Below, piece by piece: positions 48,935 to 63,464 of a DNA stretch of 64,000 bases (the first letter of the stretch is position 1; every line of letters begins with the position of its first letter). The stretch spans positions 62,001-126,000 of the forward strand of contig CANQMR010000002.1 in assembly GCA_947625015.1 (NCBI GenBank), read 5' to 3'. The position numbers were made by a program, and so were the translations under genes. Under the pieces are notes generated by a model that was given only the letters and a program-made list of their open reading frames with translations, ran no database searches and was not told where the DNA came from. The stretch is from an uncultured Lachnospiraceae bacterium (GTDB lineage: Bacteria; Bacillota; Clostridia; Lachnospirales; Lachnospiraceae).

Positions 48935-49417
48935 ATGACAAGACAGGAATTTTTAGAGGAACTGAAAAATGCATTGAACGGAGAGGTATCTCCGGAAGTG
49001 CTGATGGATACTTACCGGTATTATTCTACATATATTGACGAGGAAATCCGGAAGGGCAAGAGCGAGGAGGAGGTTTTAGAGGAACTTGGCATGCCGGGAC
49101 TGATTGCCCGCTCCATTATTGCCGCCCAGTCCGGGGAGAGAACGGCGGATGTGGAATACACAGAGGACGGCAGAACCAAAAAGGTCTGGCGTAAACCGTC
49201 TTCCCAAAAGAAGGAATCGAAAAATACCACCTATCGGGAGTTTGTATTTGATTTCAACGCATGGTATGCAAAGGTTCTGTTCGTGGCCTTTCTGATTATC
49301 CTGATTTTTATCGTGTACTTTGTGCTGAAATTGGGCTTTTGGTTCCTAATTACCTTTGGCATCCCCATTTTACTGGTCCTCGGCATCATTTACCTGATTA
49401 TCTACCTGATGCAGTAG
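48935..49417 (+). CDS. DUF1700/HAAS-type small membrane protein
   Basis: About 160 residues from the ATG at 48935 with AAGGAGG just upstream. The N-terminal 60 residues (RQEFLEELKNAL, TYRYYSTYIDEEIRKGKSEEEVLEELG, PGLIARSII) match the helical DUF1700/HAAS module, followed by a charged linker and two C-terminal membrane segments. Such proteins often accompany PadR-type regulators; none is seen here. It follows the transglutaminase gene by 11 bp. Confidence 0.78.
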   Translation: MTRQEFLEELKNALNGEVSPEVLMDTYRYYSTYIDEEIRKGKSEEEVLEELGMPGLIARSIIAAQSGERTADVEYTEDGRTKKVWRKPSSQKKESKNTTYREFVFDFNAWYAKVLFVAFLIILIFIVYFVLKLGFWFLITFGIPILLVLGIIYLIIYLMQ

Positions 49418-49460
49418 ATTCCGGCTGGTAAAAAAAGGTAGAAAAAATTGAGAAAATTGC

Positions 49461-49489
49461 TTGACAAGAAGCAGGCTTTTTTATATACT
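49461..49489 (+). promoter_or_regulatory. Strong sigma-A promoter for the tRNA pair
   Basis: TTGACA (49461-49466), a 17-base spacer and TATACT (49484-49489) lie 23 bases before the first tRNA base. Confidence 0.88.
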
Positions 49490-49512
49490 ATAGCTTGTGT
49501 CAAACGCACAAT

Positions 49513-49585
49513 GGAATCTTAGCTCAGCTGGGAGAGCATCTGCCTTACAAGCAGAGGGTCACAGGTTCGAGCCCTGTAGGTTCCA
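49513..49585 (+). tRNA. tRNA-Val (anticodon TAC)
   Basis: A 73-base cloverleaf. Acceptor GGAATCT pairs with AGGTTCC, the anticodon stem is TCTGC/GCAGA with loop CTTACAA (anticodon 49546-49548), and the T arm contains GGTTCGAGCC. The 3' CCA is not encoded. It is followed five bases later by tRNA-Met. Confidence 0.95.
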
Positions 49586-49590
49586 TTTAT

Positions 49591-49664
49591 GGCGGGGTAG
49601 CTCAGTTGGCTAGAGCATGCGGTTCATACCCGCAGTGTCGGGAGTTCAAATCTCTTCTCCGCTA
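49591..49664 (+). tRNA. tRNA-Met (anticodon CAT)
   Basis: A 74-base cloverleaf. The acceptor GGCGGGG pairs with CTCCGCT allowing two G-T pairs, and the anticodon stem TGCGG/CCGCA holds loop TTCATAC (anticodon 49625-49627). The first acceptor pair is G-T and not the unpaired C-A of initiators, so this is elongator Met (or Ile with modified C34). The CCA is not encoded. Confidence 0.92.
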
Positions 49665-49670
49665 TTAACT

Positions 49671-49720
49671 AAAGTCCTGTAAGCCTTGATTTTACTGGGT
49701 TTGCGGGACTTTAATTTTTT
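49671..49720 (+). terminator. Intrinsic terminator after the tRNA pair
   Basis: A long imperfect stem from AAAGTCCTGTAAGCC to GGGTTTGCGGGACTTT around an 11-base loop is followed by AATTTTTT. It lies 6 bases after tRNA-Met. Confidence 0.85.
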
Positions 49721-49724
49721 GGTC

Positions 49725-49753
49725 TGATACCAAAGGTATCAATTAGGGTATCA
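49725..49753. repeat. Inverted repeat with an additional half-site
   Basis: TGATACC-AAA-GGTATCA (49725-49741) is a perfect seven-base inverted repeat, and GGTATCA recurs at 49747-49753, 12 bases after the previous half-site. It lies between the tRNA terminator and the recombinase gene. It may be a protein-binding site or an old attachment site; no function is evident from the bases alone. Confidence 0.6.
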
Positions 49754-49802
49754 AACATATGTTCGATAATTAAAGAAAGGGAATTGACGTTATGTAAGAA
49801 TT

Positions 49803-49832
49803 AGAGTTGTACATAAGTGCAGCTCTTTTTTT
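49803..49832 (+). terminator. Intrinsic terminator upstream of the recombinase gene
   Basis: A ten-pair stem AGAGTTGTAC/GTGCAGCTCT (with G-T pairs) and an ATAA loop are followed by seven Ts. It insulates the recombinase gene from the tRNA transcript or could be part of a leader. Confidence 0.8.
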
Positions 49833-49906
49833 GTGCTTCATAAGTTAACAAAAATCTGCGACAATGTAGAAAAACAAATGAAATACAATGTAGATGGGAG
49901 AAAACT

Positions 49907-50761
49907 ATGGAGCGAAAAATTACAAAAGAGATGTTAAAGCAGTATGAAATCTATCTGCGGGAGGACGAAAAAAGCAGGGCAACCATCCAAAAATATCTGT
50001 GCGACCTGGAAAAACTGATTTGCTTTGCGGCCGGAAAGCCTTTAACAAAAAGCCTGATGCTTGATTACAAGGAAACGCTGTATGAAAAAGAAAAATATAA
50101 AATTAGCAGCATCAATTCTTTTCTGGTGGCGGCAAACCGTTTTTTTGAATATATGCAATGGTATGAGCTTAAGGTGAAGACCTACCGGGTGCAGAAGGAA
50201 ACCTTCTGTCCGGAAAATAAATATCTGAGTAAAGCGGAATATAAAAAGCTGTTGCATGAGGCGAAAGAAGAAAAGAAACTGCGGCTTTTTATGATTTTGG
50301 AAACCCTTGCCTCAACCGGCATGCGGGTGTCGGAACTTCAATTTTTATCTGTGGAAGCGGTAAGGCTTGGACGGGTGGAGATTCATAATAAAGGAAAGGT
50401 CCGGACAGTCCTGCTTACTGAAAAGCTGCGAAAACAACTTATGCTATATGCTGCCAAAAGGCAGATTATCGGCGGCGCAATCTTTTGTACCAAAACCGGC
50501 GAACCTGTAAACCGAAGTAATATCTGGCGGGAAATGAAAAAACTATGCAAAAACGCAGGTGTAGAGCCGACAAAGGTATTTCCTCATAATCTGCGGCATC
50601 TGTTTGCCCAGTGTTTTTATCATCTGAAAAAAGATATTGCAAAACTTGCCGATGTACTTGGACACAGCAGCATCGAGACGACAAGAATCTATATTCGCAC
50701 AACTTCAAGGGAACATCTAAAACAGCTGGAAATGCTGAATCTGGTGGAAATGTGGTGTTAG
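49907..50761 (+). CDS. Tyrosine recombinase (XerC/XerD-like)
   Basis: A 284-residue site-specific recombinase. The N-terminal 100 residues form the SAM-like core-binding domain (SRATIQKYLCDLEKL). The catalytic domain has Arg140 (TGMRVSEL), a Lys near 164, His227 and Arg230 (PHNLRHLF), His253 (LGHSS) and the nucleophile Tyr262 (TRIYIRT), so the active site is complete. GGGAG precedes the ATG. Its stop is four bases before a candidate recombination site (50766-50788), with a second such site in the opposite orientation at 50968-50990, directly before loaP. This placement suggests a local DNA invertase. An integrase of a former island beside the tRNA genes is the alternative, but no other mobility genes are seen. 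Confidence 0.9.
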   Translation: MERKITKEMLKQYEIYLREDEKSRATIQKYLCDLEKLICFAAGKPLTKSLMLDYKETLYEKEKYKISSINSFLVAANRFFEYMQWYELKVKTYRVQKETFCPENKYLSKAEYKKLLHEAKEEKKLRLFMILETLASTGMRVSELQFLSVEAVRLGRVEIHNKGKVRTVLLTEKLRKQLMLYAAKRQIIGGAIFCTKTGEPVNRSNIWREMKKLCKNAGVEPTKVFPHNLRHLFAQCFYHLKKDIAKLADVLGHSSIETTRIYIRTTSREHLKQLEMLNLVEMWC

Positions 50762-50765
50762 TACT

Positions 50766-50788
50766 ACATAATAAAAATTATATTGTAA
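50766..50788 (+). repeat. Left candidate recombination site
   Basis: ACATAAT-AAAA-ATTATATTGTAA: two AT-rich arms in dyad symmetry around a four-base spacer. The 16 bases 50766-50781 are the exact reverse complement of 50970-50985. The outer arm is ATTATGTAGTAC on the other strand, similar to the arm of the right site. Located 4 bases after the recombinase stop codon. Confidence 0.75.
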
Positions 50789-50969
50789 CCACGTCTAACA
50801 ATATATCATAATCTCTACATAGTTTCAACGTTTTTTTTACAATTACAAATTTTGTTAAATGTATTTATCTGTTTTCCAAAAAGTCAATGATAGAAATACT
50901 GCTTTTCTGTTTTGTGTTCCATGAAGTAAGAGGATTTATTGTGTAAGTATATGTATAGCTTGCAAATAC
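50782..50969. promoter_or_regulatory. Candidate invertible segment before loaP
   Basis: 188 bases between the 16-bp inverted repeats, without an open frame and AT-rich. A promoter-like pair on the - strand (TTGACT at 50887-50882, 18-base spacer, TACATT at 50863-50858) points away from loaP in the orientation given. Weaker + strand candidates also exist (TTGTAA at 50783 with CATAAT at 50807), as does one outside the segment (TTGTAA at 50985 with TATAAA at 51007), so the promoter assignment is uncertain. Inversion would turn the - strand promoter toward loaP. Confidence 0.55.
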
Positions 50970-50990
50970 ATAATTTTTATTATGTTGTAA
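50968..50990 (-). repeat. Right candidate recombination site, inverted relative to the left one
   Basis: ACATAAT-TTTT-ATTATGTTGTAA: same arms as the left site but with the spacer complemented, so the two sites are in inverted orientation when the asymmetric spacer is used to define direction. It lies 50 bases before the loaP start codon. Confidence 0.75.
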
Positions 50991-51040
50991 AAATTAACCT
51001 TCAATATATAAATGGGAAATTTATTCCCGGAGGTTTTGGT

Positions 51041-51553
51041 ATGTGGTATGTGATTCAGTCGCTAAATGGAGATGAGATGAATGTCTGTGAAAAATGTAGA
51101 CAGGCGGTACCCAAAGATGCGTACCGGGATTTTTTTGTGCCCATGTATGTCTGTATGCGGCGGTATCAGGGAGTGTGGAGCAAGGAACAAAAGGTTCTCT
51201 TTCCCGGTTATTTCTTTATTGATACAGAGCAGCCGGAGGTTGTAGAAAAAGCCCTGTCTGTTGTCGCCAGAATTGCAAAGCCGGTCTGTGTAGGGAAACA
51301 ATTTGTTCCTATCTTAGAAGAGGAACAGGATTTTTTAGAGGATATGATGGACGCCAGCCATATTATCCAGATGTCCACAGGCAACATTATTAATGGCGAG
51401 TTTGACATATACGAAGGCCCGCTTCAGGAAAAGGCAGCTTATTTAAAGAGGATTGACCGCCATAAACGGATTGCGGAGATGGAGGTCAGGCTGTTGGGAA
51501 AGCCGAGGCGAGTAAGGGTTGGATTGGAAATAGTGAAAAAGATTGCGGTGTAA
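51041..51553 (+). CDS. loaP: LoaP-type transcription antiterminator (NusG paralog)
   Basis: A 170-residue NusG-family protein. The N-terminal NGN domain (MWYVIQSLNGDE, then FVPMYVCMRR and LFPGYFFIDTE) is followed by a KOW-type end (PLQEKAAYLKRIDRHKRIAEMEVRLLG). GGAGG seven bases upstream fixes the start at 51041; the frame is open further upstream without support. LoaP proteins act on long polysaccharide or polyketide operons of Firmicutes, keeping RNA polymerase going past terminators after binding a leader RNA hairpin. Being first gene of the operon after the candidate invertible segment, it would pass any promoter switch on to all genes downstream. Confidence 0.9.
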   Translation: MWYVIQSLNGDEMNVCEKCRQAVPKDAYRDFFVPMYVCMRRYQGVWSKEQKVLFPGYFFIDTEQPEVVEKALSVVARIAKPVCVGKQFVPILEEEQDFLEDMMDASHIIQMSTGNIINGEFDIYEGPLQEKAAYLKRIDRHKRIAEMEVRLLGKPRRVRVGLEIVKKIAV

Positions 51554-51592
51554 AAGATTGATGGCAGTTGCAAAGATGGAGTGAAGTTAGAC

Positions 51593-52042
51593 ATGAAAGT
51601 TTGTCTGGTAGGTTCCAGTGGAGGACATTTAACACATTTATATATGCTAAAACCGTTCTGGCAGGATAAGGAGCGGTTCTGGGTAACTTTTGATAAAGCG
51701 GATGCAAGAAGTCTTTTAAAAGGAGAAAAAATGTATCCCTGTTATTACCCTACTAACCGGAATCTCTGGAATCTGATTCGCAATACCTTTGTAGCAATTA
51801 AGGTATTGTGGAAAGAAAAACCGGATTTGTTGATATCTTCCGGCGCAGCAGTGGCAGTTCCTTTCTTTTATCTGGCAAAGCTGATGGGAAAGAAGCTGGT
51901 ATATATTGAGGTTTTTGACCGGATTGATAAGCCGACTCTGACCGGAAAGCTGGTGTATCCGATTGTGGATCGGTTCATTGTGCAGTGGGAGGAAATGAAG
52001 CAGGTGTATCCTAAGGCTGTGAATCTGGGGAGTATTTTCTAA
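51593..52042 (+). CDS. Alg14-like glycosyltransferase subunit (PssD/CpsF type)
   Basis: About 149 residues from the ATG at 51593. The N-terminal VCLVGSSGGHLTHLYML is the Alg14/PssD signature, a hydrophobic stretch near 85-100 anchors it, and VYIEVFDRIDKPTLTGKLVYPI matches the family. Alg14-like proteins recruit the Alg13-like catalytic partner to the membrane. The partner gene follows directly. Together they add the second sugar to a lipid-linked primer, often galactose or N-acetylglucosamine. Confidence 0.9.
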   Translation: MKVCLVGSSGGHLTHLYMLKPFWQDKERFWVTFDKADARSLLKGEKMYPCYYPTNRNLWNLIRNTFVAIKVLWKEKPDLLISSGAAVAVPFFYLAKLMGKKLVYIEVFDRIDKPTLTGKLVYPIVDRFIVQWEEMKQVYPKAVNLGSIF

Positions 52043-52067
52043 AAGTTGCAGTGAAAGGATACATACA

Positions 52068-52565
52068 ATGATATTTGTGACAGTGGGAACTCATGAACAG
52101 CCCTTTGATCGTCTGATCAAAGAAATGGACAGGCTGAAGGGGAAGGGTGCAATAGAAGACGAAGTAATTATGCAGACTGGGTATAGCGCTTATGAAGCTA
52201 AGTATTGTAAATGGAGTAAATTAATTCCCTATGAAGAAATGGAGAGAAATATTGCAAATGCGGACATTGTAATCACGCATGGCGGACCAGCGAGTTTTAT
52301 TACACCGTTACAAATGGGGAAGATTCCTATTGTAGTACCAAGACAGAAGCAATTTGGGGAGCATGTCAACGACCATCAGTTGGAGTTTTGCCGACAGGTG
52401 GAGAGAAGGCTTGGAAATATTATCTTGGTGGAAGATGTTAGTAAGATAAATGAATACATAGAGCATTATAGTGAACATTGTAAAACACTACATTTGGATA
52501 TGAGTAATCATAATGGAACATTCAATGAGCAGTTAGAAATGATTGTTCGGGAGTTGGGAGTGTAA
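52068..52565 (+). CDS. Alg13-like glycosyltransferase catalytic subunit (PssE/CpsG type)
   Basis: A 165-residue GT28 C-terminal-like enzyme: IFVTVGTHEQPFDRLIKEMD at the start and the donor-binding loop ITHGGPASFITPLQMGKIPIVVPR near 74-98 are diagnostic. It acts with the preceding Alg14-like protein at the cytoplasmic membrane face. AAAGGA lies about ten bases before the ATG. Confidence 0.92.
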   Translation: MIFVTVGTHEQPFDRLIKEMDRLKGKGAIEDEVIMQTGYSAYEAKYCKWSKLIPYEEMERNIANADIVITHGGPASFITPLQMGKIPIVVPRQKQFGEHVNDHQLEFCRQVERRLGNIILVEDVSKINEYIEHYSEHCKTLHLDMSNHNGTFNEQLEMIVRELGV

Positions 52566-52567
52566 GG

Positions 52568-53674
52568 ATGCCGAGGGTTGGAATATTGTCTATGCAGAGG
52601 ATATTGAATTATGGTTCCTTCTTGCAGGCATATGGATTGAAAAGCATATTGGAGGAACTGGGCTGTGATGTGGAATTTGTGGATTATCACCCGGGAAAAT
52701 GTCTGCTTCCTGTAGAAAACGAAAGTGGAATTTCGCGAAAGCTTGCAAAAGGTATAGAGGTGTTAAAACAAAAAGCACCGATTACAGAAAAGATTCGCTT
52801 TATTCAATATAAAAGACAATACGCGGCAAAATATTACCCTTATCTTGGAATTGATGACAAGATGAACTATGTACCGGAACTTGATGTTTTGGTAATTGGT
52901 AGTGATGAGGTCTTTAACTGTGTACAGTCCAATACTAATGTAGGGTTTTCTCCTGAGTTGTTTGGTGATGGACATCATGCAAAGAAGCTGATAAGTTATG
53001 CAGCTTCTTTTGGAAATACAACCATAGAAAAGTTGGAAAAATATGGTGTGAGAGAAACGATTTCTAATTTGCTTGAAGGTTTTGATTCACTGTCAGTAAG
53101 AGATAGTAATAGTGGAAGCATTGTTGAAGAACTGACGGGCAAACAACCAGAATATCATTTTGATCCGGTTCTGGTGTATGGCTTTATCGGTAGGTGTAAA
53201 GAAATACCGCAAAGTGTAGGATATTCCAGTTACATGATTGTATATGGTTATTCCGGCAGATTCAGTAAGGAAGAGTGTAGAACAATCCGGGCATATGCAA
53301 CCCAAAAGGGGTTGAAGATACTATGCATTGGTGGCGTGCAGAGGTGCTGTGACAGATTTATTGACTGTTCACCTTTTGAAGTGATCGCTTATTTTCAACA
53401 TGCGGATTGTGTTGTGACGGACACATTTCATGGAACAATTTTGTCTGTGATAACAAAAAGGCGGTTTGGGGTTTTTGTAAGAAGACAAGGATATGGAAAT
53501 GGCGAGAAGTTAGAGGATCTTCTTGCAAGATTGAAATTAGGCGAAAGAGAGATATCAAATATAGAAATGTTGAATAATGTTTTAGCCTCTTCAGTGAATT
53601 ATAAGGAAACAGAATTAATTATAGAGACGGCTAGAAAAAATGCTTATGCGTACTTAAATGGAATGTTGGTGTAA
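52568..53674 (+). CDS. Polysaccharide pyruvyl transferase family protein
   Basis: A 368-residue GT-B-like enzyme that would add a pyruvate ketal, or a related modification, to a sugar. It shows the family start VGILSMQRILNYGSFLQAYGLKSIL, VIGSDEVFNC near 113-122, and CVVTDTFHGTILSVI near 282-296. It begins 2 bp after the Alg13-like gene and is followed 2 bp later by an FrhB-like protein. This pairing is common in Firmicutes and Bacteroides polysaccharide loci and its chemistry is not settled. Confidence 0.88.
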   Translation: MPRVGILSMQRILNYGSFLQAYGLKSILEELGCDVEFVDYHPGKCLLPVENESGISRKLAKGIEVLKQKAPITEKIRFIQYKRQYAAKYYPYLGIDDKMNYVPELDVLVIGSDEVFNCVQSNTNVGFSPELFGDGHHAKKLISYAASFGNTTIEKLEKYGVRETISNLLEGFDSLSVRDSNSGSIVEELTGKQPEYHFDPVLVYGFIGRCKEIPQSVGYSSYMIVYGYSGRFSKEECRTIRAYATQKGLKILCIGGVQRCCDRFIDCSPFEVIAYFQHADCVVTDTFHGTILSVITKRRFGVFVRRQGYGNGEKLEDLLARLKLGEREISNIEMLNNVLASSVNYKETELIIETARKNAYAYLNGMLV

Positions 53675-53676
53675 AA

Positions 53677-54855
53677 ATGCAGAATGTATCAGAAATAAAA
53701 CATGAAAAATGCTATGGCTGCGGTGCTTGTGAAGGGTGTCCTATGGAGGCTGTAAAGTTAAAGGAAGATAAATTTGGGTTTCGTTATCCGCATGTTGACA
53801 AAGAAAAATGTACTGCTTGCGGAGCCTGTTTAAGAGGATGTCCGGTGTTATATAAAGGGAACAATCAGCAGGGCCAGACAGCATATGCAGCCAGGAGCCG
53901 TAATCAGAAGGTGCTTAGTATGTCCTCTTCTGGCGGATTAGGATATGAAATTGGGCGTTGGATGATAAAAAAAGGCGGTATGGTGTGCGGTGCGGCATGG
54001 GATAAGGATTTGTTGGTTAAACATGTTGTTATAAATGATGAGAGAGAGCTGGATAAGATTCAGGGTTCTAAATATGTGCAGAGCAAATGTGACGGTGTTT
54101 ATACTGAGATTGTGAATTTATTAAAGAGCGGATATCCGGTATTGTTTGTTGGAACCCCTTGTCAGGTGGCGGCAGTAAAGATGGCAGCAGATGGATATGA
54201 GGATTATTTATACACGATGGATATTATTTGTCATGGAGTGCCTAACCAGAAAATGTTTAAAGAATATTTGGAGATGTTAGGAAAAAAATATTCCGGAAAA
54301 GTAATAGAATTTTCTTTTCGAGACAAACAAAGAGGATGGGGAACAGTAGGAAAAGCAAAGATAAAAACAGACAAAAAAATGTTTTCCTTACCAATCTATA
54401 AAACAGAGCAATCCTATTATTATTATTATTTACGGGGTTTTTTGTCCAGACAGAGTTGTTATGCCTGTCCATTTGCGAGCAGAGAACGGGTAGGAGACAT
54501 TACCATTGGCGATTACTGGGGAATAGAAAGTGTTCATCCGGAAATCAAAGATATAGAAAAAGGAATTTCTCTAATGATATGTAATACTGAAAAGGGGAAG
54601 AAAATTATTCAGGAATTGTCTGGAATTGAAATGGTAAAGACAGATTTGGATAAAGCATGTAGGTATAACGGGCAATTAGTAAAGCCTCAGGGATATGATG
54701 AAAAGAGGGAAGAACTGATGCAGTTATATATTGACGGTGGCTGGAAAAGCATAGAGGAAAGATTTGATAAAAATATTGGTGTGAGGCGATATGCGGACAG
54801 GGTAAAGGCAATGGTTCCGAGGTGGGTTGTAAGAAAAATAAAGCAGAATAGATAA
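53677..54855 (+). CDS. Ferredoxin / FrhB-FdhB C-terminal domain protein
   Basis: A 392-residue protein with two 4Fe-4S ferredoxin motifs in the first 60 residues (CYGCGACEGCP and CTACGACLRGCP) and a Coenzyme F420 hydrogenase/dehydrogenase beta-type domain (FVGTPCQVAAV, DIICHGVPNQKMF, CYACPFASRERVGDITIGDYWG). Since methanogen cofactors are not expected here, it probably reduces some other substrate in polysaccharide modification. The tight coupling to the pyruvyl transferase suggests a joint reaction; what it is cannot be read. Confidence 0.88.
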   Translation: MQNVSEIKHEKCYGCGACEGCPMEAVKLKEDKFGFRYPHVDKEKCTACGACLRGCPVLYKGNNQQGQTAYAARSRNQKVLSMSSSGGLGYEIGRWMIKKGGMVCGAAWDKDLLVKHVVINDERELDKIQGSKYVQSKCDGVYTEIVNLLKSGYPVLFVGTPCQVAAVKMAADGYEDYLYTMDIICHGVPNQKMFKEYLEMLGKKYSGKVIEFSFRDKQRGWGTVGKAKIKTDKKMFSLPIYKTEQSYYYYYLRGFLSRQSCYACPFASRERVGDITIGDYWGIESVHPEIKDIEKGISLMICNTEKGKKIIQELSGIEMVKTDLDKACRYNGQLVKPQGYDEKREELMQLYIDGGWKSIEERFDKNIGVRRYADRVKAMVPRWVVRKIKQNR

Positions 54856-54907
54856 TTGATAAAAAAGAAATTTTTAGACTAGAAATAGACTGTGTCGAGG
54901 TTCATCA

Positions 54908-56929
54908 ATGAATAATAAAATAAAACGTTATTATAGATTAAAGAAAAATACAAAAAATGACGAGACAGGATTGAAGTTGTGTCAGTTGAAAAATATATTG
55001 GCTTCATATAGATATGTCTCTTTTGATATATTTGATACATTGTTGAAAAGAGATGTACAATTTCCAACAGATGTATTTGATATAGTTGAGCGGGATTATA
55101 ATTGTTTGCATGAATATAAAAATATACAGGGCTTTAAAGAAGAAAGGATAGTTGCAGAGAAAAATGCAAGAAAGAATAGTCATTCGGAGGAAGTAAATTT
55201 AAATACTATTTATCAGAATATATTGTCATATTCCAAAAGTGAAAAAGAAGAATTAAGGGCATTAGAGAAAAAAATAGAATATGAAATTTGCACGCCGCAT
55301 TTGCCAATGGTGGAGATGTATAAATATTGCATCGAGCAGGGAAAAAAGGTTTATTTGACTTCAGATATGTATTTGGATGAAACGCTTATTCAAAATATGC
55401 TTATTAAGTGCGGAATATATGAATATAACACATTATACTTGTCCAGCACCTATGGAAAGACAAAAAAAACAGGAAATCTATTTGAGTGTTTGTTGGAACA
55501 AGAAGCAATTAAGGCAGAAGATTTAATTCATATTGGTGATTCTATATATTCGGATATGAAAGTTCCTGGCGAAAAGGGAATAAAAACATTTTTAATCCCG
55601 AGAAATATTGTTTATGACACACGATGTATGCCAAAATGGAACAACACATTAAATAATAATATTTTATTGTCATTTATAAATAACCGGATTAATTATAATG
55701 AAGACAATTTTTATAAATTTGGGTATGATTCATTCGGGGTATTATTGTGGGGGTTTTCAAAATGGCTTTTAAAAGAAATGCAAGCGAAACATATATCGAA
55801 AGTGTATTTTTTTTCCAGAGACGGATGGATTATGAAAAAAGCATTTGATCTTGTAAATAGTTCAAACAGTAATATTTCATCTTATTACTTAGAAGTCTCC
55901 AGACGAAGTCTGAAAGTGCCTCTTCTTTGGAAACAGTGTACCTTAAATAATGTGGTGCAGAATTTATCTGCGATTTCGATTATAAAGATAACTAGTTTGT
56001 TTGCAGGGATGGGATTAGATATTCGGAAATACGATAAGCTAATAAAAAAATTTGGCTTTGATAATAACACATATTTTGAACGGAGTGATATTTTAGAGAA
56101 TAAAGAAGTTAACCAATTATTTGAAATGGTTAAAGAAGATGTATATATAAATTCCAAATTGGAATATGAAAGTATTAGTAAATATTTGTACCAACAAAAA
56201 GTTTTTGGAAATATTGCAGTGGTTGATATTGGATGGAGTGGAGGGATGCAAAGAAATCTGATTGAAATACTTCGAAATATGGACGCAAAGGCAGAAGTAA
56301 CGGGATATTATATGGGAATTACAAGGCATTACAAACGCCAAATGCAAAAAAATAAAATGAATATGAAAGGATACATATTCGATTATGCACATGATGCTGT
56401 TCCCGTTGAGAAACATCGTGGATTTGTCGGTCTCTTTGAAACATTTTTTTTAGAGCAAAAGGGATCGGTTATGAAATATGAATATAACATGGAAACAAAT
56501 AATGTAAAAGTTATTAGATATCCTTATGAGTATATAGTCAATAATGAACCTAATTCCGAAATCAAAAAAATAGAAAAATTGCAAGAGGGAGCGCTTGATT
56601 TTATTAAGTGTGTTGAAAAATCAGATTATTTGAAAAATATGAGAATATCATCAAGTGATTCTTTTGAGAATATAATGCGTTATTGCGGACAACCCACATC
56701 TGTGGAATTGGAAATGTTTGCAAATTTTCATTTTTATGATGAAGATAATGTTTCATATCTTGCAAAACCGAAGATGTCATTGATAAGATATTTTTTTCAT
56801 ATTAGACAATTAAGAACAGATTTATATTTTAGTGGATGGAAAATCGGATTTTTAAGGAAATTATTTAAATTTAATTTTCCATTTTATCAAATGAAACAGA
56901 TAAAAGATATGAGGTTGAATAAAAGGTGA
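54908..56929 (+). CDS. HAD-hydrolase domain fused to a large uncharacterised region
   Basis: A 673-residue protein. Residues of about 30-245 are a HAD-type phosphatase domain with SFDIFDTLLKR (nucleophile Asp), YLTSDMYLDE, and HIGDSIYSDMKVPGEKGI (motif IV acids), matching the COG5610-type hydrolases of polysaccharide loci. The remaining about 420 residues include FGVLLWGFSKWLLKEMQ, a VYFFSRDGWIMKKAF stretch that again resembles a phosphatase or transferase core, and VVDIGWSGGMQRNLIEIL. I do not recognise this second part; it may be a transferase acting with the phosphatase. The gene is strongly AT-rich. Confidence 0.75.
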   Translation: MNNKIKRYYRLKKNTKNDETGLKLCQLKNILASYRYVSFDIFDTLLKRDVQFPTDVFDIVERDYNCLHEYKNIQGFKEERIVAEKNARKNSHSEEVNLNTIYQNILSYSKSEKEELRALEKKIEYEICTPHLPMVEMYKYCIEQGKKVYLTSDMYLDETLIQNMLIKCGIYEYNTLYLSSTYGKTKKTGNLFECLLEQEAIKAEDLIHIGDSIYSDMKVPGEKGIKTFLIPRNIVYDTRCMPKWNNTLNNNILLSFINNRINYNEDNFYKFGYDSFGVLLWGFSKWLLKEMQAKHISKVYFFSRDGWIMKKAFDLVNSSNSNISSYYLEVSRRSLKVPLLWKQCTLNNVVQNLSAISIIKITSLFAGMGLDIRKYDKLIKKFGFDNNTYFERSDILENKEVNQLFEMVKEDVYINSKLEYESISKYLYQQKVFGNIAVVDIGWSGGMQRNLIEILRNMDAKAEVTGYYMGITRHYKRQMQKNKMNMKGYIFDYAHDAVPVEKHRGFVGLFETFFLEQKGSVMKYEYNMETNNVKVIRYPYEYIVNNEPNSEIKKIEKLQEGALDFIKCVEKSDYLKNMRISSSDSFENIMRYCGQPTSVELEMFANFHFYDEDNVSYLAKPKMSLIRYFFHIRQLRTDLYFSGWKIGFLRKLFKFNFPFYQMKQIKDMRLNKR

Positions 56930-56935
56930 AGTGGC

Positions 56936-58018
56936 ATGAAGGTTTTAGTCATTAATACATGTGGCATCGCAGTTGGTGGTATTACAACAAATATGTTGGA
57001 GTATATCAACGCATTGTCAGATAGTAATATATTGTTTGATGTGTTGGTTACAGTCTATTATGAGGAAGATGTGATATTAAAATTTAAAGAATTGGGTTGC
57101 GGAATTGTTAGTATGCCAAATCGGAAAAAAAATCCGTTGGGTTATGCGGCGAAGCTGAATAAATTTATTAAAGAAACCAGGTATGATGTTATACACGTTC
57201 ATGGAAATTCTGCAACTATGGCACTTGAGTTATTGATTGCTAAAAGAAATGGGATTCCTACAAGAATTGCACATTGTCATAATAATGTTTGTGGACATCC
57301 ATTTCTACATAAAATATTGAATCCGGTTTTCAAATCATCATATACAATAGCATTGGCTTGTTCTAAAAAAGCGGGAGAATGGATTTTTGGAAAAGAAAAT
57401 TTTCAGGTGTTGCATAATGCAATAAATATTAAGAAATACAATTTTAGTGAATCTGTTCGAACTGAATATAGAAAAAAATTAGGAATAAAAGATGAATTAG
57501 TTATTGGGCATGTTGGCTCATTTAATAAACAGAAAAATCATGAGGTAGTTATTAATGTTTTTGCAGAAGTTGAAAAAGTGGAAAATGCAAAACTGCTTCT
57601 TATAGGCGAGGGAGAATTAAGAAAAGAATGTATAAAAAAAGTACATGAACTTGGATTAAAAGAAAAAGTTTTATTTTTAGGTATAAGAAATGATGTAGAA
57701 AAGATTATGCAGGCTATGGATGTTTTTTTGTTTCCTTCGCGTTGGGAAGGTCTGGGTATTGTATTAGTTGAGGCACAGGCGGTTGGATTGCCTTGTATAG
57801 TATCTAATGTGGTGCCTAAAGAGGTGAAATGCACAGAAAATATTGAATATGTAAACTTGAACGAAGGTGTAAGCGTGTGGGCGAATAGAGTGTTGAATGC
57901 TTTTTGTGGTAACAGAACAGAAACATCAAAAGTAGCTTGTGAAAGCCTAAAAAAACGTGGGTATTGTATTGATAAGGAAGCATGGAAATTAGAAAAAATA
58001 TATAGAGGAATACTTTGA
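56936..58018 (+). CDS. Family 4 (GT-B) glycosyltransferase
   Basis: A 360-residue retaining-type GT4 enzyme. The N-terminal glycine-rich loop GIAVGGITTNMLEYINAL binds the acceptor side, VIHVHGNSA follows, and the donor site has VIGHVGSFNKQKNHEV and FPSRWEGLGIVLVEAQAVGLPCI with the EX7E-type acidic pair. It transfers a hexose or similar sugar to the lipid-linked repeat unit. The start is 6 bp after the previous stop. Confidence 0.92.
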   Translation: MKVLVINTCGIAVGGITTNMLEYINALSDSNILFDVLVTVYYEEDVILKFKELGCGIVSMPNRKKNPLGYAAKLNKFIKETRYDVIHVHGNSATMALELLIAKRNGIPTRIAHCHNNVCGHPFLHKILNPVFKSSYTIALACSKKAGEWIFGKENFQVLHNAINIKKYNFSESVRTEYRKKLGIKDELVIGHVGSFNKQKNHEVVINVFAEVEKVENAKLLLIGEGELRKECIKKVHELGLKEKVLFLGIRNDVEKIMQAMDVFLFPSRWEGLGIVLVEAQAVGLPCIVSNVVPKEVKCTENIEYVNLNEGVSVWANRVLNAFCGNRTETSKVACESLKKRGYCIDKEAWKLEKIYRGIL

Positions 58019-58054
58019 TTTTTAATAAAAGGGTTGAATTGAGAGGATAAAATA

Positions 58055-59332
58055 ATGAGCATTACTATATATGGATTAGTATGTTTAACATTAGTGGCAA
58101 TAGCATTATATAAAAATAATGCCAATATGATGTTGGCGCTTTTAATATTAGGAATGAATTTTCAATCAGCATCTGTTTTTGTACTAAATGGACAAGGAGT
58201 AGGATTTCAATTAGTAATATCCACAATATTTATGCTATGGATATTTTTTTATTCTAATATATTTCAAAAAGGGAAATTGATAATTGTAAGAAGTTACGAA
58301 AAACAGAAGTTTTCAATAGTAGCAGCTCTTTTTTTGGGTATTTACTGTGTTATAGTGACAAAGAAGATGAGTATTAATTATGAAAATAGTTTTATTATAT
58401 TGTATCTTTTACAGTTTTTAATTTATATTTCCTGTTATGTAAGTATGTGGTTTGTACATAAAAGATATAGCTATATGGATATAGACAAAATTATGACTAT
58501 GGTAATTACAGTTATATGTGTAATAGGGATAATTCAATTAGTAACTACAGTAAATATATTTCCCAAAAATGTTATTTTAGAAACATTTATATATACAAAA
58601 GACACCCGGTCCGCATATTATACTACAAATTATTATCCGAGATTGTTTTCAGTGTTTATGGAGCCAAGTTACTGTGCGGCTTTTTTGGTAGGATCGTTTT
58701 ATTATATTATATCAAAGGAAAAATTAGATAAATATTGTGTACGATTGGCAATTGTCTTACTAGTGGAAATTCTTCTTACATTTTCGTCTACAGCATACGG
58801 AGCTTTTTTTGTTACGGGGCTTATATATTTAGCGTTGTGTAAAAACAAAAAAGCGTTAAAATGGTTGATCCCATTGGCAATTGTAATGGGAATGTTGTTG
58901 TTAGCCACAGGCGTATTGCAGCAGATGCTAAATGATGTGATTTTCAGCAAGGGAACAAGCGGTTCGGGTGTTACTCGTGCAGGATGGGACAGACATGCAA
59001 TGACTGTCTTTCAGGAGAATCCTTGGTTTGGCGTGGGTTATAAGGGAGTCAGAGGCTCTCATTTGTATACATCAATTTTAGGACAGCTTGGGATTGTAGG
59101 AACGACATTATATGTTCTTATGATTTTGCCTTTAATAATCGCTGGCTTGAAAAGCAAACGGACTACTTCGGCTGCATTATTTTTGATAGGTTCTATTATA
59201 TCGCAGTTAATTGCACTTCCAGATTTGGATTTTTGTGTGTTTTGGGAGGGGATGTATATTATGGCTTTGATGCTGGGAATGGCGAAAGGAGAATCAGGAT
59301 ATGAATCTGTCAATAATAATTCCGGTATATAA
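58055..59332 (+). CDS. O-antigen polymerase-like protein (Wzy type)
   Basis: A 425-residue membrane protein with about eleven hydrophobic segments and a Wzy/O-antigen ligase region. Signature pieces are FSVFMEPSYCAAFLVGSFYY (a proline/serine motif common in Wzy), a long extracytoplasmic loop, and GWDRHAMTVFQENPWFGVGYKGVRGSHLYTS, typical of the Wzy_C/ligase family. It would polymerise repeat units on the outer face after flipping by the protein at 61268. The start of the next gene lies 32 bp inside its 3' end. Confidence 0.82.
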   Translation: MSITIYGLVCLTLVAIALYKNNANMMLALLILGMNFQSASVFVLNGQGVGFQLVISTIFMLWIFFYSNIFQKGKLIIVRSYEKQKFSIVAALFLGIYCVIVTKKMSINYENSFIILYLLQFLIYISCYVSMWFVHKRYSYMDIDKIMTMVITVICVIGIIQLVTTVNIFPKNVILETFIYTKDTRSAYYTTNYYPRLFSVFMEPSYCAAFLVGSFYYIISKEKLDKYCVRLAIVLLVEILLTFSSTAYGAFFVTGLIYLALCKNKKALKWLIPLAIVMGMLLLATGVLQQMLNDVIFSKGTSGSGVTRAGWDRHAMTVFQENPWFGVGYKGVRGSHLYTSILGQLGIVGTTLYVLMILPLIIAGLKSKRTTSAALFLIGSIISQLIALPDLDFCVFWEGMYIMALMLGMAKGESGYESVNNNSGI

Positions 59333-60338
59333 CGCAGAGAAATACCTTAAGCGCTGTTTGAACAGTATAGTAGAGCAACTAAAGGATGGTACGGAACTGA
59401 TTTTAATTGATGATGGCTCTTCAGATACCAGTTCCCGGATTTGTGACCATTATGCAGACAGATATGCCGGAATTAAGGTAGAACATCAGGAAAATGCCGG
59501 CGAAGGGGCAGCCCGAAACAGAGGAATGGAACTGGCAGAAGGTGACTGGATTACCTTTATAGATGCAGATGATTATGTGTCCGATTGTTTTGTGGATACA
59601 TTACAAAAATACATATCACAGGATTTGGATCTGATTCTGTTTGAATATGTGGAGGCAGATGGAACAGAAAGTATAAGACATAGTCGAAGCATAGAGGAAA
59701 AAGCCAACTATTATGATGAAAGTGACAGAGAGGCATTTATATGTGCGAATTTTATGGCAAGGGATATTGTAGAGACCTGCAATTTTAATATGCGTTCGGT
59801 TTGGGCAAAGGCATACCGGCGAAAACAATTATTAGAAAATCAGATTTGCTTTGTACCTGAAGTTAAAGTTGGAGAAGATATGCTTTTTACTTTAATGGTT
59901 TACAACAATTTTAATCGTGCAGCATGTGTATCAGTTCCAGTCTATAATTATTTTTTTAGAAACGAAGACTCTGTGACCAATCAGTATAAACCGGATTTTG
60001 AGAATATTGTGCAATCCTATGTCGGCGCAATTGTGCCTTGGTTAGAGCAATATCCGCAGTATGAAGCTTACCATGCGGCGTACCGCATGAATGATATTAT
60101 TTTATATATAAAATATGATTTTTTTCATAATAAAAATACGGAAGATAAAAAAAATCTCCATAAACGAATGAAAAGAATATTAGTGAATGGTGATTATAAG
60201 ACATATTACCAGCTTGCAAAGGAGAGACGGCTTTTGGCTGAATTTTATGGTTTAAGTAAGAGAATCGTATTCTGGCTTGCCCTGCATGGTTATTTTAGCT
60301 TATTAAGGACAATCGCATACATAAAATACGGAGCATAG
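59301..60338 (+). CDS. Family 2 glycosyltransferase
   Basis: A 345-residue GT2 enzyme with IIIPVYNAEKYLKRCLNS at the start, IDDGSSD at about 37-43, ENAGEGAARNRGM and the metal-binding FIDADDYV near 90-97. AAAGGAG nine bases before the ATG supports the start, which overlaps the polymerase gene by 32 bp. The C-terminal 110 residues are helical and basic. It adds one sugar of the repeat unit. Confidence 0.92.
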   Translation: MNLSIIIPVYNAEKYLKRCLNSIVEQLKDGTELILIDDGSSDTSSRICDHYADRYAGIKVEHQENAGEGAARNRGMELAEGDWITFIDADDYVSDCFVDTLQKYISQDLDLILFEYVEADGTESIRHSRSIEEKANYYDESDREAFICANFMARDIVETCNFNMRSVWAKAYRRKQLLENQICFVPEVKVGEDMLFTLMVYNNFNRAACVSVPVYNYFFRNEDSVTNQYKPDFENIVQSYVGAIVPWLEQYPQYEAYHAAYRMNDIILYIKYDFFHNKNTEDKKNLHKRMKRILVNGDYKTYYQLAKERRLLAEFYGLSKRIVFWLALHGYFSLLRTIAYIKYGA

Positions 60339-60355
60339 TTAGGAGGATAAGGAAG

Positions 60356-61237
60356 ATGTCGAAGATAATCTGGACTTTGTGGTGGCAGGGGGAAGAAAAC
60401 GCTCCGGAGTTGGTAAAAAAGTGCATAGAGAGTATGAAGATTCATGCCAACGGGGCGGAAGTGATCGTCTTGGACGAATCTAGCGTAGGTAACTATATTC
60501 AGTTGCCAGACAGGGTGAAATCTCTGTTTGAGAAAGGGAATATTTCTATAACCCATTTATCCGATTTAATTCGTTTCCGGCTGCTTTACCAATATGGGGG
60601 CTTATGGCTGGACAGTACGATTTATGTGGCGCAGGATATACCGGCGGATTTGTTTGAACAAGAGTTTTATACTATTAAAAATGGGACTGGCTTTGATAAA
60701 ACCATAGCAAAAGGCCGATGGACAGCCTTTTTGGTAGGTGGGCGGAAAGAAAATCCTGTTTTTGAAAATATGAATAGGTTTTTTGATAGATACTGGGAAT
60801 TAAACGATGAATTGGTATGCTATCTTTTGATTGATTTCTGTATGAATGAGGTATACGAGTCAATAGCAGATTGCAGGAGAATTATAGATGCTGTACCGTC
60901 ATATTCTGGAAATGTATTTACATTGGCAGACCGATTAAGTGCAGTAGAGGATATTGGGAAAGTGCCTGCTGAGGGGATGTTTCATAAATTGAGTTATAAG
61001 GACATTCCTCATAGAAGGGGAAAATTGCGTAAGCTGAAATCGTTATGTCGCCATATACGGGAACTGTTCAACATACACAAATGGAAAAAATGGGGATTTA
61101 GGATTGCCTGGGCAACATTTGTTGGAAATTGTGCAAGGTCACTACCTGAACCTTTGGGGAGCAAGGCAGCGGCATATTATAACAGCGTCGTGGGGGGGTA
61201 TTGGAAAACTATTGGGGAAAGTTTCCGTATTAGATAG
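60356..61237 (+). CDS. Capsular polysaccharide synthesis glycosyltransferase (GT32-like)
   Basis: A 293-residue protein with IIWTLWWQGEENAPELVKKCIES at the start and LSDLIRFRLLYQYGGLWLDSTIYV near 74-98, the DXD-containing motif (LDST) of the Caps_synth/Gly_transf_sug family. It begins 17 bp after the previous gene with AGGAGG as ribosome-binding site. Confidence 0.88.
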   Translation: MSKIIWTLWWQGEENAPELVKKCIESMKIHANGAEVIVLDESSVGNYIQLPDRVKSLFEKGNISITHLSDLIRFRLLYQYGGLWLDSTIYVAQDIPADLFEQEFYTIKNGTGFDKTIAKGRWTAFLVGGRKENPVFENMNRFFDRYWELNDELVCYLLIDFCMNEVYESIADCRRIIDAVPSYSGNVFTLADRLSAVEDIGKVPAEGMFHKLSYKDIPHRRGKLRKLKSLCRHIRELFNIHKWKKWGFRIAWATFVGNCARSLPEPLGSKAAAYYNSVVGGYWKTIGESFRIR

Positions 61238-61267
61238 TGATTGAGCATTAGAGAGGAATTTACAGGC

Positions 61268-62800
61268 ATGAGTGAAAACCGCATAAAACGCGCATCGAGT
61301 AATATTATATGGTCCGGAATGCAGAGATTATCATCTATGCTGATTAGTTTTGTATCAAGAACCTGCCTGATTTATGTATTAGGAGTTCAGTATGTAGGGC
61401 TGGATGGATTATTTACTGCTATTCTATCTGTATTAAACCTGACCGAGCTGGGAATAGGCGCAGCCATGGTTTTTAGCATGTATAAGCCCATAGCGGAGGG
61501 AGATGATGATAGGGTATGTGCTCTGCTTGGTTTATATCGAAAGTGTTATCGTGTGATTGGACTGATTATATTGGCAGGTGGACTTTGCGTCATGCCTTTT
61601 ATTCGAAACCTAATCTCCGGTGATGTTCCCGAAGGATTAAATATTTATGTTCTTTTTGCTGCATATTTGGCAAACACAGTATTAAGTTATTTTTTGTTTG
61701 CCTATAAATCCTCGTTATTAAATGCCTGCCAACGGATAGATATTATCAACATTATTAATATGCTAGTAACTGTATTGAAAACGATAATACAGTGTGCAGC
61801 ACTGCTGTTAACTAAAGACTATTACTATTATGTATGGATTATTCCCATAGCTACCATTGTCCAGAATCTATTTACCAGTGTACTGGTATCCCGAAAATAT
61901 CCACAGTACATATGCAAGGGGAAAGTGGGAAAGGATGAAATTGCTAATATTCGAAAAAGGGTATATGGATTGGTATGTCAAAAAATAGGGGATGTGGTGT
62001 TGAATGCGGTAGACAATATAGTTATTTCTGTATTTCAAGGCCTTACAGTGCTTGGTGTATATACGAATTATATGTTTATTAATAATGGGTTGACCAGAAT
62101 TTTGTTTGTATTTCGAAGCGCTATTACCCCTGTGATAGGTAATTCCGTTGCTGTGGAAAGCAAAGAAAAAAATTATAAAGATTTTAATCACTTGCAATTA
62201 CTGTATTTTTGGATTAGTTCTTGGGCGGCAATTTGCCAGCTATGTTTGATGCAACCATTTATCGGATTGTGGGTCGGAGAAAAATGGTTGGTAGATATGG
62301 TGACGGCTATATTTTTTGTATTATATTTTTACTTGGATTCTGGGAGATATATGGTGATGATGTATAATACGGCAGCAGGAATTTGGTGGGAGGGCAGGTA
62401 TGTGCCGCTTGCGGCATCTATAGTGAATCTGGCAATCAACTTAGTTTTGGTGCATTTTATAGGATTAAAGGGAATCCTGTTATCTACGGTTATTGCATTA
62501 ATTTGTATTGATATTCCGTTTCAGTGTTATGTTCTATTTAAATATTATTTTAATTTTCCTAATGCATGGCGGATTTATTTGGAAAAACAGGTTGTTAATT
62601 TTGTTTTGATGGCGGTTATTGGCGCGATTACATATAAAGTATGTATGATATTTTCAGGTTATACAATTTCTACTTTAATAGGTCGTGGATGTATTTGTAT
62701 AGTTCTCCCTAATATACTGCTATTTTTAGGTTATAGAAAAAGCAGAGATTTTGATGGGGCGATGCTTATGCTGAAAAGGGTGCTAAGTCGGGGAAAGTGA
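61268..62800 (+). CDS. Polysaccharide flippase (Wzx-type, MOP superfamily)
   Basis: A protein of about 510 residues from the ATG at 61268 (a TTG at 61241 is the alternative). The start RIKRASSNIIWSGMQRLSSMLISFVSRTCLI is typical of Gram-positive Wzx/RfbX transporters, and about 14 hydrophobic segments follow. It moves the completed lipid-linked repeat unit to the outer face for polymerisation by the Wzy-like protein. Confidence 0.9.
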   Translation: MSENRIKRASSNIIWSGMQRLSSMLISFVSRTCLIYVLGVQYVGLDGLFTAILSVLNLTELGIGAAMVFSMYKPIAEGDDDRVCALLGLYRKCYRVIGLIILAGGLCVMPFIRNLISGDVPEGLNIYVLFAAYLANTVLSYFLFAYKSSLLNACQRIDIINIINMLVTVLKTIIQCAALLLTKDYYYYVWIIPIATIVQNLFTSVLVSRKYPQYICKGKVGKDEIANIRKRVYGLVCQKIGDVVLNAVDNIVISVFQGLTVLGVYTNYMFINNGLTRILFVFRSAITPVIGNSVAVESKEKNYKDFNHLQLLYFWISSWAAICQLCLMQPFIGLWVGEKWLVDMVTAIFFVLYFYLDSGRYMVMMYNTAAGIWWEGRYVPLAASIVNLAINLVLVHFIGLKGILLSTVIALICIDIPFQCYVLFKYYFNFPNAWRIYLEKQVVNFVLMAVIGAITYKVCMIFSGYTISTLIGRGCICIVLPNILLFLGYRKSRDFDGAMLMLKRVLSRGK

Positions 62801-62807
62801 GGTTTTA

Positions 62808-63464
62808 ATGAGAAATTTATATAATACATTGATAAAATGGTCAAAGATAAGTCTGACAAAATTTATTTATTATAACTTTTTTTGTAAGAAAATACATAGG
62901 GAAAAACATGCTTTTTTGGTTCCTTATCGTGGAAGTGTGATACGGTTACGAAAAGGGGCTGCAATATATATGAAAGGTAACATATTGTTGAATACGGGAA
63001 GAATGTGGAATGTTAGAGAAAATTGTTATTTGCTCTTAGATCGAGAAGCAAAACTACAAGTTGAGGAACAGATGTTTATGGCTTATGGTAGTAGAATGGA
63101 AATAGGAGATGGTGCCCAGGTAAAAATCGGTTCTATGGGTTGTAATATGTGGTGTACGCTGATATGTTTAGAATCTATTACCATGGGGAAAGAAGTTATG
63201 CTAGGGTGGAATGTGACTGTTATGGACGGAAACGGGCATCCAGTAGGGTACGAAGGACAGCAAACACGAAAAAATACAAAGCCGGTAATTATTGGCAATC
63301 ATGTATGGTTGTGTAACGGATGTCATGTTATGAAAGGAAGTAAGATAGGAGATGGCGCCATTATCGGAGCGAGATCATTTATCAGCGGACGAGTGAAAGC
63401 CGGTGCCATGACATCGCCGATGCCAACTAAGGTTATTATGGAAGATGTCGGCTGGAACGGATAA
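62808..63464 (+). CDS. Hexapeptide-repeat acyltransferase
   Basis: A 218-residue left-handed beta-helix acyltransferase. The C-terminal part shows the hexapeptide periodicity and the catalytic-His region WNVTVMDGNGHPVG, then GNHVWLCNGCHVMKGSKIGDGAIIGA. It would transfer an acetyl or similar group to the repeat unit. The gene is followed directly by a paralog. Confidence 0.9.
   Translation: MRNLYNTLIKWSKISLTKFIYYNFFCKKIHREKHAFLVPYRGSVIRLRKGAAIYMKGNILLNTGRMWNVRENCYLLLDREAKLQVEEQMFMAYGSRMEIGDGAQVKIGSMGCNMWCTLICLESITMGKEVMLGWNVTVMDGNGHPVGYEGQQTRKNTKPVIIGNHVWLCNGCHVMKGSKIGDGAIIGARSFISGRVKAGAMTSPMPTKVIMEDVGWNG

Follow-up and report, generated by a model that had tools for sequence, protein, structure and literature searches.

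A candidate invertible promoter with dif-like sites between an Xer-like recombinase gene and loaP in a Lachnospiraceae bacterium

The window, which is the whole stretch of 64,000 nucleotides that was analysed, contains a tyrosine recombinase gene that is followed by a short intergenic region, by loaP and by a series of co-oriented polysaccharide genes. The intergenic region between the recombinase gene and loaP consists of 279 bases with 25% G+C and holds two 23-base blocks. No gene was found between the two blocks in the sequence or in the list of open reading frames. Only two tRNAs reached Rfam gathering scores in 49400-52600. The features of the locus are as follows.

49803-49826, + strand: hairpin resembling an intrinsic terminator, between the tRNA genes and the recombinase gene
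49907-50761, + strand: tyrosine recombinase of 284 aa, XerA/XerD-like, the presumed invertase
50766-50788, + strand: putative left recombination site, ACATAAT-AAAA-ATTAT-A-TTGTAA, with its 18-base core at 50766-50783 and its central six bases, TAAAAA, at 50772-50777
50784-50967, no strand assigned: candidate invertible segment between the cores, 184 bp
50828-50800, - strand: predicted promoter TTGAAA-N17-TATATT, 10/12, with TG before the -10
50887-50858, - strand: weaker promoter-like pair TTGACT-N18-TACATT, 9/12
50968-50990, - strand: putative right recombination site, inverted relative to the left one, ACATAAT-TTTT-ATTAT-G-TTGTAA as read, with its 18-base core at 50968-50985 and its central six bases, TTTTTA, at 50974-50979
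51041-51553, + strand: loaP, a NusG-family antiterminator gene (Pfam NusG) and the first gene past the segment
51593-63464, + strand: co-oriented polysaccharide genes

The window recombinase matches Phage_integrase in Pfam (97.6 bits) and XerA_Arch in NCBIfam (145 bits, under the equivalog cut-off). It does not have the status of a XerC or XerD equivalog, as its scores for XerD (120.5 bits, cut-off 329.6) and XerC (107.5 bits, cut-off 335) are below both NCBIfam cut-offs. The solved chains that match it best are those of XerA (5hxy and 4a8e) and XerD (1a0p). An intact active site had been claimed for this enzyme, and R140, K164, H227, R230, H253 and Y262, which we take to be the catalytic residues, are all present.

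Relatives of the recombinase were collected by a profile scan of one genome per species, with a query built by aligning the window recombinase with its two paralogues. The scan identified 286 relatives and the best 80 of the 286 were kept as loci, many of them from metagenome-assembled genomes with Lachnospiraceae, Ruminococcaceae, Oscillospiraceae or Clostridia as their titles. In a sample of 397 genomes of the window's family, 76 encode a relative at E <= 1e-55, the source genome being one of them. The residues R, K, H, R, H and Y are identical across 80 aligned recombinases (the window and 79 of the 80 loci, with L063 left out for its in-frame stop), except that Y is missing in L029, where the reading frame reaches the contig end. 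The source genome has two more recombinases of this family and both are cut by contig ends. By eye, the stretch ttaacaaaaatctgcgacaat is conserved upstream of all three recombinase genes of the family in the source genome (49840-49870 in the window, about 1433-1455 in L002, and about 783-760 on the - strand in L003), and it is perhaps part of their promoters.

The initial annotation had described the 16 bases at 50766-50781 as the exact reverse complement of 50970-50985. It had placed them in two 23-base blocks of one form in inverted orientation, bracketing a non-coding segment with the tyrosine recombinase gene on one side and loaP on the other, and all of this is read directly in the sequence. 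The extended arms, 50762-50781 and 50970-50989, are 20 nt long and complementary at 19/20 positions. When 50762-51040 was shuffled 5,000 times with dinucleotides preserved, one shuffle reached the observed inverted-repeat score, so the window repeat by itself is unlikely, yet possible, by chance. The blocks had been described as dyads with an asymmetric four-base spacer; they are better put as dif-like sites that consist of two arms and a six-base centre. The central six bases of the window pair agree exactly in the inverted sense.

The same design is exhibited by most of the relatives. The site ACATAA-N6-TTATGT lies behind most of the related recombinases, usually in two copies. An unbiased count of the centres took the 64 loci (the window and 63 of the 80) in which 470 bp or more follow the recombinase, and sites were picked by their arms alone (at least 10/12) with N6 ignored, the first and the last site being taken. 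Two or more sites are present in 61/64 loci; no site occurs in L028 or L052, and a single one in L101. The N6 of the two sites agrees in the inverted sense in 58/61 loci, a count that includes the identical loci L091 and L092, and in the direct sense in 0/61. The counted loci have 42 distinct central six-mers, and 10,000 permutations with random pairing of left and right sites gave a mean of 2.0 agreements and a maximum of 9. Among the three misses, L043 and L048 do carry a matching site that was skipped by the first-and-last rule, and L046 has two sites whose centres truly disagree. Strand exchange by tyrosine recombinases demands agreeing centres in the two sites. As the centres agree in the inverted sense, inversion is the predicted outcome.

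Other arms with a similar layout were also identified, namely ACATTC-N6-GAATGT in genome G078 and further variants in more relatives. Four loci (L064, L069, L146 and L236) have a third site besides the inverted pair, so that deletions or other inversions could be possible there. The site pair was found on named replicons in three of the five records examined, which are a plasmid of Monoglobus pectinilyticus and two replicons of one Subdoligranulum variabile strain.

Several modules are present in some genomes. A survey of such modules obtained a pair in 26/40 regions, the rest being mostly contig ends or regions with other arms. Differing centres were identified among the paired modules of one genome in G095 (5/5), G409 (5/5), G271 (4/4) and G301 (5/6), where G095 and G409 belong to one genus and have centres in common (modules from L163-L199). 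The Subdoligranulum strain has different centres in 2/2 modules. In D16-51 and CANSYK the same centres are reused among the modules, so the six-base centre as a strict within-genome barcode is not universal. The within-genome pairs, like the 81 segments of the promoter survey below, were selected by agreeing centres and are thus no evidence for the agreement itself.

Both orientations were sought among related segments, as had been suggested earlier, and they were found among similar segments of different loci and not within one species. Comparison of the unique segments with one another gave 2,926 pairs, of which 193 reach a similarity score of at least 45, with 142 in the same sense and 51 in the opposite sense; these pairs share members and hence are not independent. 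The segments of L033 and L038, from two genomes, are inverted relative to each other (score 58.0), and so are those of L034 and L035, two modules of one genome (score 43.5). The window segment scores 40.0 against that of L023 in the inverted sense and 13.0 in the same sense. A score of 40.0 was reached by none of 1,000 shuffles, for which the maximum was 32.0. L023 is a related module at another locus, in genome G023 of the same genus as the window; its recombinase is 76% identical to the window recombinase and the gene downstream of its segment is not loaP. The similarity of the window segment to those of L024, L025, L034, L035 and L036 is no better than chance. Within one species, no flip was found among four pairs of identical segments; each pair has one orientation throughout, and its two members may stem from a single genome present in two collections.

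Thirty contigs end at most 450 bp after the recombinase. The site is reached in 19 of them and 8/19 end 0-10 bp past it, a count that comes without a null and whose 19 include the near-duplicate pairs L053/L125 and L067/L126, apparently the same genomes. This set also includes 11 loci added by hand, some of them because they lie at contig ends, and two contigs of the source genome. Contig breaks at the sites could reflect a mixture of orientations, and repeats among paralogous modules would equally produce them. By eye, contig C14 of the source genome ends inside such a site, 85 bp before the loaP of that contig.

The reading that best survives beside a working switch is that of a locked or decayed one, which was once invertible until an arm drifted, so that the segment is now fixed and loaP is off or read from elsewhere. 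The right arm of the left window site is indeed imperfect (TTATAT vs TTATGT, 11/12), and decayed LoaP modules exist. Among the 17 loaP loci examined, several of which have short upstream sequence, only L108 (genome G016) has a site pair; it exhibits the order recombinase, site pair, loaP in decayed form, with a recombinase remnant and a shortened loaP. In genome G320 (L150/L124), a recombinase with a C-terminal extension (by eye) is followed by a single site and loaP, which is possibly the switch minus its segment. In the window, however, the recombinase reading frame is intact, with every active-site residue in place, and the pair has exactly agreeing six-base centres. We consider a locked switch improbable.

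The pair TTGACT-N18-TACATT that had been pointed out before does exist, and the likely promoter is instead the one at 50828-50800, which has the higher match and lies nearer the left site. As assembled, this predicted promoter faces the recombinase gene and not loaP, which makes OFF the predicted state of the assembly; the earlier suggestion of a possible off state fits this direction. In the computed inverted form, the -35 lies at 50923-50928 and the -10 at 50946-50951, both directed at loaP, and the -10 ends 90 bases before the loaP start.

Promoters were also predicted with a sigma-A-type model in 81 segments that had been chosen by matched centres (77 unique). In 67/77 segments, the top-scoring prediction is directed at one of the two sites and is separated by 28-72 nt from the outer end of that site; even placement would put 19% in this zone. 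Of these 67, 64 have the 17-nt spacing. The mean best score is 10.8 vs 7.7 in shuffles, but in only 32/77 segments is the real score at least as high as that of each of the 20 shuffled copies. The predicted direction is clear in 51 segments, with 12 ON (to the downstream gene) and 39 OFF (to the recombinase).

The segment may also be thought to flip while holding an orientation-dependent terminator or attenuator, with the operon promoter elsewhere. Read-through control is conceivable as the recombinase gene is directed at the segment. Against this, a scan of the window segment for terminator-like sequences between the two sites gave none, and in 67 of the 77 segments the predicted promoter is close to one end; this reading is rated as quite improbable, below that of the locked switch.

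Still less credit is given to the inverted repeats as RNA or protein-binding elements, such as a leader hairpin or an operator, instead of recombination sites. The right site of the inverted form would indeed fold as a 12-bp hairpin in the 90-nt loaP leader (-20.6 kcal/mol, z -2.27). Neither a hairpin nor an operator, however, calls for inverted agreement between the two centres of a locus combined with variation from locus to locus, and we regard this explanation as very unlikely.

The least credible explanation, now dropped, is that the recombinase is a mobile-element integrase and the repeats are attachment sites or element ends near the tRNA-Val and tRNA-Met genes: the recombinase gene does start about 240 bp past two tRNA genes, and five plasmid records and two phage-labelled ones carry relatives at E <= 1e-30, but no relative was confirmed in viral_contigs, and the window sites lie behind the recombinase, are inverted rather than direct and enclose no gene.

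It is highly probable, judging from the sequence, that the window segment is an invertible promoter flipped by the neighbouring Xer-like recombinase and controlling loaP and the co-oriented genes. The recombinase-controlled promoter inversion first proposed for this locus gains support from the paired sites, the agreeing centres, the outward predicted promoters and both segment orientations. What the sequence itself provides is the sites, the agreement of their centres, the position of the predicted promoter, and the occurrence of similar segments in either orientation at different loci. We infer that the recombinase would act on both sites, that flipping would happen reversibly in the source strain, and that LoaP would act on the operon.

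The product of loaP scores 138 bits against the LoaP model of NCBIfam, NF033641, and passes the cut-off of 125. The domains in 51593-63464 are Alg14-like, glycosyltransferase 28 C-terminal, pyruvyl transferase, FrhB/FdhB-like, glycosyltransferases, Wzy_C, Caps_synth and hexapeptide transferase, and two proteins have no Pfam match above the cut-off. The label of a Wzx/Wzy operon holds for Wzy_C, Caps_synth, pyruvyl transferase and the glycosyltransferases and lacks a flippase match, as the presumed flippase (61241-62797) has no match in Pfam, NCBIfam or PDB. The co-oriented ORFs run about 10 kb beyond the window, to about 22.9 kb from loaP, with gaps of at most about 335 bp that leave space for internal promoters. 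The genes of 51593-63464 are presumably transcribed as one operon.

The source genome has three more loaP genes. LoaP relatives are present at E <= 1e-38 in 4 of the 397 sampled genomes of the family and at E <= 1e-20 in 14/26 genomes of the genus, the source genome included in both. No UNCG hairpin (a stem of at least five pairs, at least two of them G-C, on a UNCG loop) was found within -900 to +1100 of loaP in the available sequence of seven loaP loci, with the window taken in both orientations.

LoaP is one of several targets of these switches. No LoaP match was found in the available sequence of the best 80 of the 286 recombinase loci, where at least 3,000 bp follow the recombinase in 55/80 and less than 470 bp in 17/80, and the idea of LoaP as the family-wide target was dropped. 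The first downstream proteins (54, one per locus, picked mechanically) match SPFH/Band 7 models in 9/54 loci, zinc-ribbon models in six, collagen in three, and leucine-rich-repeat, cohesin and dockerin models in two each. The varied downstream proteins and the lack of a LoaP match in the available sequence of these 80 loci point to a general switch.

At the cut-offs used, two genomes, G023 and G078, were observed to encode sisters of the recombinase that are catalytically dead and about 245-250 aa in length. Five that were compared are 41-53% identical (two of them 98%), and K, the second R, the H of the third box and Y are lost in 5/5. A dead sister gene lies after the putative invertible segment in L218 (G078:C24), L219 (G078:C16), L221 (G078:C139) and L023 (from 6448), and adjoins loaP in L107 (701-1474, - strand) and L153 (623-1444). 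L220 (G078:C72) is also among the dead-sister loci. An apparent shortened remnant of a dead recombinase gene (by eye) lies at 2010-2100 of L019, behind the loaP of contig C8 of the source genome. The dead sisters are possible site-binding regulators.

Many known invertons have no neighbouring recombinase, so such a gene is no requirement for an inverton. In Bacteroides fragilis, a single master serine recombinase, Mpi, flips most of the capsule promoters from a distance. The Bacteroides capsule loci are similar to the window in having an invertible promoter, a NusG-family antiterminator gene and a capsule operon. They differ in that the window has an adjoining tyrosine recombinase gene, dif-like sites and LoaP.

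UpxY genes have been reported as enriched among the regulatable genes beside invertons of Bacteroidota-dominated groups (PMC11892184). Inverton group 139 in the same work consists of 33 invertons, 32 of them from the class Clostridia, and nearly all lie near tyrosine-type invertase group 35, with reads showing orientation changes in two named members (PMC11892184). The coordinates in the names of these two members give repeats of 26 and 14 bp that are 205 and 227 bp apart. The switch family of the window is probably the same as inverton group 139. LoaP has zero occurrences in the main text of that paper (PMC11892184). In Clostridioides difficile, RecV is described as a master recombinase for some of seven inversion sites, the repeats of which are unrelated except for Cdi2 and Cdi5 (PMC5903667). 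These switches are also of Clostridia and also have short segments bound by inverted repeats, two of which were shown to control adjacent genes (PMC5903667), whereas the sites of the window family are of one design and lie behind their own recombinase gene.

The core of the E. coli dif site has been reported as CATAAT-GTAT-ATTATGTT (PMC3025954). It fits the switch consensus CATAAT-N4-ATTATGTT, and the window recombinase is nearest to XerA/XerD. Apart from its central four bases, the reported E. coli dif is a match to the switch core, so the switch sites are dif-like and would have two XerD-like arms; we infer that one single recombinase serves both arms. The switch differs from XerCD/dif in having two inverted sites about 200 bp apart with both arms XerD-like, several modules in some genomes, and a recombinase below the XerC and XerD cut-offs.

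Eggerthella lenta belongs to a different phylum from the window host. Megabase-scale inversions have been reported to shift its capsule genes relative to loaP, and the authors of that preprint detected no recombinase gene near the breakpoints (PMC13174815). The 16-bp inversion repeat, GATAAGCGCGGTTATG, has the ATAA-N6-TTAT shape of the switch sites (PMC13174815). In contrast to these megabase inversions, the window has a candidate segment of 184 bp. In Bacillus velezensis, LoaP is described as a NusG paralogue that gives read-through in long operons and works on antibiotic clusters by way of a UNCG leader hairpin (PMC12691694). The window loaP belongs to the same NCBIfam family and differs from that description in that the hairpin was not found at the loaP genes tested.

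The following mechanism is proposed. The Xer-like recombinase would bind the two inverted dif-like sites, the arms of which are near TACAACATAA and TTATGTTGTA, and strand exchange would take place in the six-base centre. Inversion would be the outcome, since the inverted sense is the only one in which the two centres agree. In the assembled form, the promoter would be directed at the recombinase with loaP OFF, and it would yield antisense RNA into the recombinase gene. In the flipped form, the promoter would transcribe loaP and about 23 kb of co-oriented genes, and LoaP would then aid RNA polymerase through the long operon.

The Bacteroides UpxY capsule promoters and probably group 139 are already known, and LoaP with its own adjoining recombinase looks new. 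Neither LoaP behind a dedicated local switch nor the dif-like site rule with matched centres was found described among the matches listed in the literature searched, which held few subscription journals. A wider reading is offered tentatively and with some doubt, where a domesticated Xer/dif system may form a portable switch cassette across Clostridia (one recombinase, two dif-like sites and one promoter, before surface and other operons). The centre might then be a barcode in some genomes, the LoaP version might commit the cell to a processive capsule transcript, and in two relatives the dead sister might bind the sites and brake or lock the switch.

If the window segment is indeed such a promoter switch, the Bacteroides capsule design of a flippable promoter, an antiterminator and a long operon would also be present in Clostridia, with a dedicated Xer-like recombinase and LoaP. 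The switch would also offer a testable reason why some assemblies are broken here, and a starting point for understanding the dif-shaped repeat that accompanies the capsule inversions of Eggerthella. The site rule ACATAA-N6-TTATGT, with N6 matched in the inverted sense, could locate such switches and predict their state from genome sequence.
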